Shown here one piece after another: positions 35,931-53,212 of a stretch of DNA of 64,000 nucleotides. Source of the DNA: Haloarcula taiwanensis (GTDB lineage: Archaea; Halobacteriota; Halobacteria; Halobacteriales; Haloarculaceae); NCBI GenBank assembly GCA_002844335.1, contig CP019156.1, positions 1-64,000 on the forward strand. The letters run 5' to 3'. The notes beneath the pieces were generated by a model, which saw only the letters and a list, made by a program, of their open reading frames with translations, ran no database searches and had not been told where the DNA came from. Numbering within the stretch: the first letter of the stretch is position 1; each line of letters opens with the position of its first letter. The position numbers and the translations under genes were made by a program.

Positions 35931-36980
35931 CTACTCTACTCCGACAGGAGTGGCAGGCGCAGGCTCCTGCGGCACATCCCGTCCCGCAAACTCTTCAGGC
36001 GACTGGCGCTCCCGCCAATGCTGCATCCAAGCCGCTGTCTCTTCATCGACGTGCTTGATCAGTTGCTTATCGGGCCACAGATGGACCGGTAGGTCGAGCT
36101 CACGCCCAATCTCCTGAACCCATCGTAGGTGATTCGTCGCATACTTGACCCACCGCTCACGAGATCGCAACGTATCCAACTCTTCAGCTAACTCCGTTTC
36201 ACCAGCGTCCCGCGCTGCCTCGACAGTCATCTCGAAGTTCCCGCCACGGGGATTAATCGGCTCGTGAAATACTACAGCCGGATCACACTCAGCAACCCGC
36301 TCCAACTGCTCCCGAAGGTCAGCTTTGTCTTGCGTGGGATAAGTCGGACTCATGCTGACGAACGTCTGAACGCCATGTTCGTTGAATTCTTTCAGGCCCT
36401 TCAACCGCAACTCCGGCGCTGGCGCACTTGGCTCAATTGCTCCGACTTGATCGGCATCCATACACGGAATCGATGAGCCGATGGTGACGTGCTCGCCCCC
36501 ATCCTGAAATACATCCAGATCCTGCAACGCCAGAATCGGATTCCGCGTTAGGACCCGTGTGTGTTTTTCATGACTGGTTAATGCATCCACGACATTGCGG
36601 GTAATCTTCCCCGCACGACCATCCATATAGCAATCAGTAGAAAAAGAGACTCCAACAACGCCCTGTCCTCGCTTGGTTGGATTCCAAGAACGCTTCCGGT
36701 CTAGATGCTCGTCAAGCCGTTCACCCAGTCCGTCGCGATAGAGCACGTAGCTTCCCCACTCTTTCTGCCCGTTATCAACGTCAGCCTCTTCTTCGAGCAT
36801 ATCCGGCCGCGCTCGAATGTTCGGCGTCGAGGGAACATAGCAGAACTTGCAGCCATGCCGACAGCCTGTCGCTACGTTGACAACGTAGTCACACAGATGC
36901 TTGCTGTTGAGCCCCGATTCGCTGAGAATCGCCTTCGTAGGGTCTTCTCCCGTCCGAACGTCTTCGTGGTCGTCTGTCAT
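35931..36980 (-). CDS. Radical SAM protein (CxxxCxxC, SPL/COG1533-like)
   Basis: 349 residues. Cluster-binding Cys40, Cys44 and Cys47 (C-R-H-G-C-K-F-C-Y) begin a radical SAM barrel with I-G-S-S-I-P, V-S-M-S-P-T-Y-P and F-H-E-P-I-N-P-R-G. The enzyme should cleave S-adenosylmethionine reductively to start a radical reaction; the substrate is unknown. It shares extended similarity with the next gene but lacks that protein's N-terminal zinc-knuckle extension. Convergent with the TcmP-like gene. Confidence 0.82.
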   Translation of the reverse strand: MTDDHEDVRTGEDPTKAILSESGLNSKHLCDYVVNVATGCRHGCKFCYVPSTPNIRARPDMLEEEADVDNGQKEWGSYVLYRDGLGERLDEHLDRKRSWNPTKRGQGVVGVSFSTDCYMDGRAGKITRNVVDALTSHEKHTRVLTRNPILALQDLDVFQDGGEHVTIGSSIPCMDADQVGAIEPSAPAPELRLKGLKEFNEHGVQTFVSMSPTYPTQDKADLREQLERVAECDPAVVFHEPINPRGGNFEMTVEAARDAGETELAEELDTLRSRERWVKYATNHLRWVQEIGRELDLPVHLWPDKQLIKHVDEETAAWMQHWRERQSPEEFAGRDVPQEPAPATPVGVE

Positions 36981-37114
36981 ATGTTATCTTGTCTTTCTCG
37001 TCTACTACTAGATATAAATGTGTGCAACACAGTTCAACTTCCAGTTTCACTTTCACTCCGCGTGGCTGACTTCTAATGGGGTCCAGTATAAAAAGACAGG
37101 TAGGAGAAAGACGA

Positions 37115-38458
37115 ATGGAACTCACTTGGGACACCGGCGATAGCTGGTTCGAACGGACATACGCCGTCGAACACGCCGGGGAGACGGTCGCCACGTTCGA
37201 CGACCATCCGACACTCGACACGCTTCGCGAACTCTCACGACAACACGGTGTCCCAACTGAACGGCTCGACCTCTGGCAAGCCGGGCTGCTGTGTACACAG
37301 TGCAACGACGAAATCAACGACCGCTTTGCCGCCAATCCACAGGGTGACCTGCTATGTTGGGACTGTGCCACTGACACCGAAAGCCACGACGAGCATGGGA
37401 TTACGGTCAACACTGACCCAACGAAGTCGGTGATGAGCGAATCCCATCTCCACACCAAGAGTCTCTGTGACCACGTTATCAACGTCGCCACCGGATGCCG
37501 GCACGGCTGTGAGTTCTGCTACGTGCCAACCACGCCGGCTATCGACAGTCGCGATGAGATGCTCGCTGAGCAGGCTAATGTCGACGATCCACAGACCGAC
37601 TGGGGGAGCTATCTGCTGTACCGGGACGACCTCCCAGAGCGACTGGAGAACATCCTCGACGAACGTGATCCCAGTGAGCGCAAGCAGACTGAGCGCGGTC
37701 GGGGCGTTGTGATGCTGTCCAGCGGCACTGACTGTTACCAGGACCGACGGACGGCTCAGATCACACGTGGCGCTGTCGCCGAACTCATCACACACGATAT
37801 TCCCATCCGAATTCTCACGCGAAGCCCTGCCGTGACTCGGGATATCGACCTCTTCCAAGCCGCCGGTGACCACATTACCGTTGGCTCGTCGATTCCCTCG
37901 TTCGATGCCACACTCGTCAGGGCGATGGAACCGAACGCCCCACCTCCGATGACTCGCTGGCAGGCGTTAGACGAACTCCAGCAGGCCGGTGTGTCGGTGT
38001 TCGTCTCAATGTCGCCGACATACCCGACGATGGGCGAAGACGACTTTCACGAGCTACTCAGCTACTTCAGAGCGCTCGGTGAGGTTGTCGTCTTCCACGA
38101 ACCAATCAACCCGAGGGGCCAGAACTTCCAGCAGTGTCTCGACGCCGCCGAGCAAGCCGGCTACGGCGACGTTGTCACCGAACTCCAACAGATGCAAGAC
38201 AGCCATCAGTACTGGGTCGAGTATGCTCTTGAGCAACTGAACACGGTCCAGCAGGTCGCAACGCGCTTCGACGGGCTCGAAGTGCACTCCTGGCCAGACG
38301 ATGAACTGGTGCGCTCGACGAGCGGCCAACTGCGGTCAAAGCTCAACGCGATGCAAGAGGCCGTCTCACCGGAGTCATTCTCCGAGCGTAATACAGATGT
38401 CTCGCCTGAGCAGTCCGAGTTAGCCCGGGACGGCGAGTCCATAGAGCATCTCATCTAA
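37115..38458 (+). CDS. Radical SAM protein with N-terminal zinc-knuckle extension
   Basis: 447 residues from the ATG at 37115. Residues 1-95 form an extra domain with two CxxC pairs (Cys60/63 and Cys81/84), probably binding zinc. The radical SAM motif is Cys128, Cys132, Cys135 (C-R-H-G-C-E-F-C-Y), followed by the same barrel motifs as the previous gene. The two radical SAM genes are divergent and about 130 bp apart. A segment is duplicated at 1129-1343. A palindromic element follows at 38532. Confidence 0.85.
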   Translation: MELTWDTGDSWFERTYAVEHAGETVATFDDHPTLDTLRELSRQHGVPTERLDLWQAGLLCTQCNDEINDRFAANPQGDLLCWDCATDTESHDEHGITVNTDPTKSVMSESHLHTKSLCDHVINVATGCRHGCEFCYVPTTPAIDSRDEMLAEQANVDDPQTDWGSYLLYRDDLPERLENILDERDPSERKQTERGRGVVMLSSGTDCYQDRRTAQITRGAVAELITHDIPIRILTRSPAVTRDIDLFQAAGDHITVGSSIPSFDATLVRAMEPNAPPPMTRWQALDELQQAGVSVFVSMSPTYPTMGEDDFHELLSYFRALGEVVVFHEPINPRGQNFQQCLDAAEQAGYGDVVTELQQMQDSHQYWVEYALEQLNTVQQVATRFDGLEVHSWPDDELVRSTSGQLRSKLNAMQEAVSPESFSERNTDVSPEQSELARDGESIEHLI

Positions 38459-51932: not shown

Positions 51933-51938
51933 TTTAAG
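51933..51938 (+). promoter_or_regulatory. TATA-like box of the RPA-like gene
   Basis: TTTAAG lies about 25-27 bp before 51961, so transcription should begin almost exactly at the first base of the folded leader. Confidence 0.45.
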
Positions 51939-51961
51939 TAGTCGGCACCCATGCCATTAAG

Positions 51962-52051
51962 TACGGAAAGACACGACGCACGCGGCGCTGGCAGGGCAGT
52001 TTCACGCCGCAGAAATCGGGTGTAGGAGCACCCGACAAGTGTCTTTCCGTA
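51962..52051 (+). ncRNA. Structured 5' leader: predicted three-way junction
   Basis: P1: TACGGAAAGACAC (51962-51974) with GTGTCTTTCCGTA (52039-52051), a perfect 13-bp helix. P2: GCGGCG (51982-51987) with CGCCGC (52005-52010). P3: TCGGGTG-TAGGAG-CACCCGA (52016-52035), a perfect 7-bp hairpin. The structure ends 15 nt before the start codon at 52067, leaving room for a ribosome. The shape resembles a cis-regulatory RNA such as a riboswitch or autoregulatory protein-binding leader. No known class was recognised. Confidence 0.65.
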
Positions 52052-52066
52052 TGTGCGAGAAAGACA

Positions 52067-53212
52067 ATGTACGCTACCAATTCCAGCGGTAAGAAAGCAT
52101 CGGCAAGCAACCAGACGGTTTCCCTTTCGGCCCACGTCGAGGGTGGTCCCGAGCAACTTCTAGAGGCGGTCGCAGAGACCGAAAACGGCGACGAACTCGA
52201 TTTCAGGATGAATCGGGGGAGCGATAGCCGTGGCAACTTCTACGCCCGGCAGGAGGAGGCATACGACTGGACCCGCTCGACCGAGGTTGGTCCGGACCGG
52301 CGGTTTGGCGAAACGCTAGAACAGCAGGAAGAACGCCACGGACGCGAAGCCGAGCAAGCCCGACACTCCGAGGTCGCACGCGCCCACGTCGACGGTGCTG
52401 ACCGCGAAGCCTCGGCTCGCCAGCTCACCGACGCGGAAACCGAACGGGCTGACGGGTTCCGCTCCCCGGCTGACCCCCGGCAGTGGATGGACCGCGACAC
52501 GCTGGCGCGAGTCAACCAGCAAGCCGCGACGCTGGCAGACAAGACCAGTCTGTCGCAGGCGGCGGCAAGCCGCCGACTCGCCGCCCTTGTGTCCGGGCAG
52601 ATGGGCGACTGTAACAGCCTGTATGAGGCTTCCTTTACCGTCTTGGACGAGGCCCAGAACGACCTGCAAGTACCCACGCCTATCGCGGATGTCTCGCCCT
52701 ACGGCTACGAGTGTACGGTCGAGGGCGAAGTGACCCACATCATCGCGGAGCCAGACGCTCGGAACCAGTACCAAGTCCTCTATATCGAGGACGACAAGGG
52801 AACGAGCGCGAAGGTCACGGTCTGGGGCAAGTCCATGCATGGCGGCGAGATGGTGCGCACGCTCCACGAAGGCGACAGAGTTCGGATTTCCGGGGGCAAG
52901 CCCGACGACTACAACGGTATCAAGACGGTGGCGGTCACGAGCGACACGCTCATGTGCATCATCGAGCGCGGCGACGGTCCCGCGCCCACCGGACACGGGA
53001 GTAGTATGTTCGGCTCCTCGGGTGATAGCCCGGCGGTGGCGTCGTGGGAGGCCGAATCAGACACCCATCAGTGGGCCAACGAGCGGGACACTGACCACGC
53101 GGTCGCCGTGACGCTCGGGAAGGCCCGCTGTCCCGAGTCCGGGTGTTCGGACCTGTTCGACACTGAGCATGGGGCCGCCACTCATCGCGGTATCGTCCAC
53201 TCCGCAGACTGA
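52067..53212 (+). CDS. OB-fold (RPA-like) protein with C-terminal C2H2 zinc finger
   Basis: 381 residues. The N-terminal half is acidic and helical with Glu/Arg-rich stretches. Residues about 205-300 form an OB fold of the RPA/SSB type (C-T-V-E-G-E-V-T-H-I-I; S-A-K-V-T-V-W-G; G-D-R-V-R-I-S-G-G). Residues about 350-378 hold a zinc finger, C-P-E-S-G-C...H-R-G-I-V-H. It should bind single-stranded DNA during plasmid or viral replication or repair. A structured leader precedes it. Confidence 0.8.
   Translation: MYATNSSGKKASASNQTVSLSAHVEGGPEQLLEAVAETENGDELDFRMNRGSDSRGNFYARQEEAYDWTRSTEVGPDRRFGETLEQQEERHGREAEQARHSEVARAHVDGADREASARQLTDAETERADGFRSPADPRQWMDRDTLARVNQQAATLADKTSLSQAAASRRLAALVSGQMGDCNSLYEASFTVLDEAQNDLQVPTPIADVSPYGYECTVEGEVTHIIAEPDARNQYQVLYIEDDKGTSAKVTVWGKSMHGGEMVRTLHEGDRVRISGGKPDDYNGIKTVAVTSDTLMCIIERGDGPAPTGHGSSMFGSSGDSPAVASWEAESDTHQWANERDTDHAVAVTLGKARCPESGCSDLFDTEHGAATHRGIVHSAD

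Follow-up and report, generated by a model that had tools for sequence, protein, structure and literature searches.

A probable two-state translational switch in a large class of haloarchaeal mRNA leaders

What could a compact folded leader do at the 5′ end of the mRNA for an OB-fold protein? The locus lies in a 64,000-nt stretch of Haloarcula taiwanensis DNA (positions 1 to 64,000 of CP019156.1, here called the window). First-pass annotation had described a 13-bp helix that encloses stems of 6 and 7 bp and ends 15 nt before the start codon, and all of these parts were found as claimed. The outer helix, P1, is a perfect 13-bp inverted repeat (51962-51974 / 52039-52051) whose arms are 64 nt apart, lengthened to 14 bp by an extra G-U pair. 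Inside it are a 6-bp stem, P2 (51982-51987 / 52005-52010), and a 7-bp stem, P3 (52016-52022 / 52029-52035), and 15 nt separate the end of P1 from the ATG at 52067. Positions 51933-52066 gave a minimum free energy (MFE) of -52.9 kcal/mol, compared with -37.2 +/- 3.4 kcal/mol for shuffled sequences (z -4.6; 0 of 200 as low). In the following list, “R1” is a covariance model of 34 leaders of the OB-fold gene and “ALT” is a hairpin that competes with P1.

51933..51940, + strand: TATA-like promoter element TTTAAGTA; from sequence, 27-28 nt before P1
51961..52066, + strand: structured 5′ leader, from predicted transcription start to last base before AUG; R1 match and conservation
51962..51974, + strand: strand A, the P1 5′ strand, TACGGAAAGACAC; P1 cells 97.5% paired in 34 leaders
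51982..51987, + strand: P2 5′ strand GCGGCG; GC to AU double change at one pair
52005..52010, + strand: P2 3′ strand CGCCGC; fold and alignment
52016..52022, + strand: P3 5′ strand TCGGGTG, the class sequence signature; double changes at 3 of 7 pairs, multi-copy across Halobacteria
52023..52028, + strand: P3 hexaloop TAGGAG, hypervariable, ending T..G or C..A; class loop comparison
52029..52035, + strand: P3 3′ strand CACCCGA; fold and alignment
52039..52051, + strand: strand B, the P1 3′ strand, GTGTCTTTCCGTA; 52040-52047 shared with ALT, changes avoid the shared part
52059..52066, + strand: strand A′, GAAAGACA, directly 5′ of AUG; complementary to B at 52040-52047, giving the ALT hairpin
52067..53212, + strand: downstream gene for OB-fold (RPA/SOSS-B-like) protein P0001, 381 aa; weak Pfam OB matches below the gathering cut-off

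R1 matched the window at 51961-52069 with 127 bits. The annotation had also taken a TATA-like box to place the start of transcription at the helix, and TTTAAGTA has the spacing expected of one. When 79 members of the wider class are aligned on the first base of P1, their A+T fraction is highest at position -27, where it reaches 0.97, and about -27 is the usual distance of an archaeal TATA element. Because this peak holds across 79 members, the start site is predicted to be at P1, and judging from sequence transcription probably starts there class-wide. The proposal of a compact structured leader at the predicted start is thus supported by conservation, covariation and promoter spacing. The OB-fold protein itself gave only sub-threshold OB matches in Pfam, and a sequence and profile search of the PDB with it gave no useful match. 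Elsewhere in the window, two similar ORFs (35931-36980 and 37076-38458) carry CRHGC(K/E)FCYVP motifs that are radical-SAM-like, and a shorter ORF (1179-1697) has partial sequence likeness to both, in each case judged by eye.

To describe the leader in relatives, a DNA search was used that recovered 31 copies in 20 of 145 related genomes, 19 of these genomes belonging to the window's genus. All 31 copies sit upstream of homologues of the OB-fold protein. Several genomes have one copy on each of several replicons, and the plasmid-collection records with the leader are Haloarcula plasmids, in which the protein is titled SOSS complex subunit B family or hypothetical. A tandem copy in G006:C61 was dropped as an assembly overlap around an N. 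More distant homologues of the gene (e.g. L053-L060) had no R1 match. Two others, L051 and L052 (g21), also had none, and carry a different upstream inverted repeat, GTAGGGCG...CGCCCTAC, that is possibly another leader type.

The 34 leaders were aligned from P1 through the AUG (alignment A2). Standard pairs fill 93.9% of P1/P2/P3 cells, versus 29-51% in controls with slid partners, and double changes occur at six P1/P2/P3 pairs. They include, in P3, UA to CG in six leaders and GC to AU at two further pairs (CGGGTG/CACCCG to CGAGTG/CACTCG and to CGGATG/CATCCG); in P1, AU to GC in three leaders; and in P2, GC to AU in two leaders. Covariation among homologous leaders had been named as the check on the fold, and compensatory changes are present in all three stems. 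For the OB-fold leaders alone, the double-change measures had shuffle controls of 2 to 14 of 500, figures that are optimistic since related sequences inflate shuffle statistics. Covariation within this set should be considered modest, and it is the wider class that carries the argument.

The best clue to mechanism is a pairing that the annotation missed. Positions 52040-52047 of strand B, TGTCTTTC, are fully complementary to the eight nucleotides touching the AUG (A′, GAAAGACA, 52059-52066). P1 and ALT both need strand B and are mutually exclusive. Within the 34 leaders, 98.2% of ALT cells are paired and 5 show double changes, a value that none of 500 shuffles reached. In one compensatory example TGTCTTTC/GAAAGACA is replaced by TGTCTTCT/AGAAGACA; two leaders have TTCT/AGAA in place of TTTC/GAAA, and a third leader also has a change at one pair of the helix. 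Changes in P1 are distributed as predicted for a strand with two partners, in that they spare the shared part of B: where B is shared with A′, 19 fall on A and 4 on B, and where it is not shared, 18 fall on B and 3 on A (Fisher p ~1e-5, relatedness ignored).

Folding energies were calculated for the same leaders. When strand A is left out, ALT is present in the MFE fold of 33 of 34. With strand A present and full helices imposed, the P1 state has a predicted energy below that of ALT in all 34, by a median of 6.5 kcal/mol (range 0.4-12.8), and at this cost ALT would be reached only with a strong effector or after trimming of the 5′ end. Note that the automatic P1 picks were poor for L095, L199 and L212, which skew the ALT-P1 mean in the energy table. 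In the OB-fold-gene form the AUG itself is outside the ALT stem.

R1 was run on 391 Halobacteria genomes, where it found a divergent copy in another genus that had been absent from model building (E 2.7e-12). Ahead of other genes, five weak matches scored 26-35 bits. All five end at the AUG and preserve both pairings although the letters differ, as in GGAAGA .. GGTCTTCC .. GAAGACC-AUG and ACGAAGG .. ATGGCCTT .. AAGGCC-AUG. They have the P3 hairpin CGGGTG-N6-CACCCG in common, with CGCGTG/CACGCG in L096. A search pattern for this hairpin, its loop ends set to Y and R, matched 155 of the 391 genomes with up to 12 copies in one; a reversed control pattern was missing from most genomes and never occurred more than twice. 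In scans of named genomes the hairpin occurs in Natrinema, Halovivax, Natrarchaeobius, Halopiger, Halomarina, Halarchaeum, Haladaptatus, Natronorubrum and others, and chance matches also occur in GC-rich bacteria.

Eighty regions were extracted, and every P3 match was judged by one rule for the A/B/A′-AUG layout. The full layout is present at 80 of 278 haloarchaeal strand-sites (~28 being OB-fold-gene leaders) and at 7 of 184 in other records; four of the seven look like chance matches and three (L317, L338, L340) like true members. For 28 diverse members, the longest perfect complement between A′ and B averaged 6.5, versus 4.0 for swapped partners, and that between A and B 6.9, versus 5.0. 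The observed complementarity was reached in 0 of 20000 permutations; since these members had been curated for the arrangement, the strand-site count is less affected by selection. At least 15 different B/A′ sequence pairs occur, each still complementary. Sequence comparison thus establishes both predicted helices, the strand that they share, their positions relative to promoter and start codon, and their spread over unrelated genes.

In the form found in Natrialbaceae, strand A resembles GGAAGCCA, with TGGCTTCC as B and GAAGCC as A′; the stem sometimes takes in the A or AU of the AUG. P1 is 99.1% paired, nearly all departures being G-U changes on strand A. In 21 of 27 leaders ALT has a further inner stem, 4 bp or longer, whose sequence varies (AAACCC/GGGTTT, AATCCC/GGGATT, CAAAC/GTTTG, AAGCC/GGCTT). 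R2, a model of this form built without any OB-fold-gene leader, was applied to the 391 Halobacteria genomes with an E cut-off of 0.01 per genome and no more than ten matches scored in each; it matched at least 501 times, in 135 of them. About 4 of the weakest matches are to be expected by chance over the 391. R2 also weakly matches Haloarcula genomes that carry the OB-fold-gene leader. Strand A often has a local partner of its own in Natrialbaceae leaders (CGGAG..CTCCG, CTGGA..TCCAG), and both P1 strands could be re-paired in the ALT state there. A second hairpin, CGRGAY-ATAAAC-GTCYCG, has a fixed place inside the short ORF at +18 to +36 after the AUG, with its loop at +24 (L181-L206 and other Natrialbaceae), and shows a compensatory change of GAGAC/GTCTC to GGGAT/GTCCC.

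Searches of Rfam 15 at the gathering score found no family for the window or for 15 class loci other than one unrelated tRNA, and a permissive search (E up to 10) placed nothing on the leader. Searches of the open-access literature turned up no description of this leader class. The leader is one of hundreds in a haloarchaeal family that is apparently undescribed.

Genes that follow class leaders encode the OB-fold protein, SWIM zinc fingers, a zinc ribbon, a TRM13-type CCCH zinc finger and unmatched small ORFs, and no single function is common to them. Natrialbaceae have ten or more leaders per genome. Their paralogous two-gene units (L149-L206) consist of a short basic ORF (M[IF]xYxLxx[YH]KRxAR) followed by a CxxC...CGC micro-protein that adjoins it and often overlaps it. 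In CP050016.1 (L063 3001-3091) an AUG that abuts A′ lies 90 nt upstream of the deposited start, which suggests that the gene encodes a longer protein beginning at that AUG; the leader class can aid start-codon annotation in such cases. Ahead of one leader-bearing SWIM gene (L225 908-962), CCTTGGCCTTACAAGGCCAA-like repeats flank and overlap the TATA region and suggest a second control at the DNA level.

We consider it probable that the leader is a cis-acting two-state translational switch and represents a new, large haloarchaeal class. When B pairs with A, the closed multi-helix junction P1/P2/P3 would form and leave the segment before the AUG single-stranded, the predicted ON state. When B pairs with A′, a hairpin would abut the AUG, or in other members take in its first base or two, and initiation would be blocked, the predicted OFF state. 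The balance would be set by a signal common to the class, most probably a protein or small ligand recognizing the conserved P3 hairpin and the junction. That the leader acts on translation rather than on mRNA stability, that the states are ON and OFF in this direction and that a trans-acting signal is shared is what we infer from the arrangement of the pairings.

The functionally unrelated downstream genes are the main reason for preferring a shared signal to autoregulation, in which the OB-fold protein would bind its own leader, trap one conformer and repress its own translation. Its weak OB-fold match and the position of all 31 DNA-level copies ahead of homologues favor that account, as does the presence of zinc fingers, possible nucleic-acid binders, among several other downstream products. 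Set against these are an identical architecture ahead of unrelated gene types, the lack of a model match at distant homologues such as L053-L060, and the fact that the part conserved across gene types is P3 and nothing specific to the OB-fold gene. Autoregulation, as the annotation had proposed it, thus gained no specific support; it cannot account for the whole class, and we regard it as unlikely. A riboswitch common to the class is a possibility that we hold tentatively and with some doubt: one metabolite or metal ion sensed at the P2-P3 junction would control as many as ten genes or more in a genome by way of a Shine-Dalgarno-independent platform, in which one strand has the 5′ end and the start-codon segment as alternative partners. 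Two expected properties of a riboswitch are present, namely a conserved structured domain in the 5′ leader and an alternative pairing tied to the expression platform (B:A versus B:A′, with the permutations and the extended ALT stems). Zinc as the ligand is a guess, made because many downstream products carry cysteine-rich zinc motifs.

Two further accounts place the function in DNA. P3 is near-palindromic as DNA, and its loop occurs both ways round, which does not look like a loop that is read as RNA. Its ends are T..G or C..A in 78 of 79 members and never a Watson-Crick pair; the loop sequence is CTNNNA or its reverse complement, much as repeated inversion of the hairpin loop would leave it. 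A dimeric transcription factor might therefore occupy the palindrome CGGGTG-N6-CACCCG just past the start, the other repeats being further sites; the near-perfect palindrome and a 6-nt spacer found both ways round would suit this. An operator would be expected to show one shared motif rather than mutual complementarity, but A, B and A′ vary between members yet remain complementary (at least 15 self-complementary B/A′ pairs), strand-A changes keep pairing, mostly through G-U (46 kept, 3 broken), and P3 itself co-varies, and so we judge an operator quite improbable. Least probable of all, and very much so, is a site-specific recombination or other DNA-structure element with short inverted arms and an asymmetric, invertible 6-bp core, in which RNA folding would be incidental. 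It could explain a hypervariable loop found in both orientations and the excess of exact reverse-complement loop pairs over reversed ones (8 versus 0 and 21 versus 1). However, any perfect hairpin can give loop inversion, identical loops are equally frequent (20) in the non-RPA set, and the fixed promoter-to-AUG position and the complementarity abutting the start codon would play no role.

The two-state translational switch can be compared with systems already described. Only a handful of archaeal cis-regulatory RNAs had been confirmed or predicted by 2020 (PMC7247131), and the class would add an explicit two-state mechanism at start codons without a Shine-Dalgarno sequence; through it one could study how mRNAs with leaders are controlled in haloarchaea and which signal the RNA reads. 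Translational riboswitches and anti-sequestor leaders likewise have a junction-closing helix and a start-site-sequestering hairpin that compete for one strand, but the present class is archaeal, has no known ligand or Rfam match, and sequesters bases directly 5′ of the AUG, or part of it, instead of a Shine-Dalgarno sequence. The Halobacteria S15 leader (PMC7247131) is also a haloarchaeal structured 5′ leader found through covariation; archaeal ribosomal-protein leaders precede ribosomal protein genes, whereas this class precedes genes for OB-fold, SWIM and CxxC small proteins. The fluoride riboswitch of Thermococcus kodakarensis, in 2021 the only experimentally determined natural archaeal riboswitch (PMC8241225), is similarly an archaeal leader thought to act on translation, but the window's leader matches no Rfam family even at permissive thresholds. 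In synthetic theophylline riboswitches of Haloferax volcanii, placing the AUG region in a stem represses translation (PMC8241225), which makes the proposed output of the class feasible, although those switches are engineered and also built around a Shine-Dalgarno sequence.
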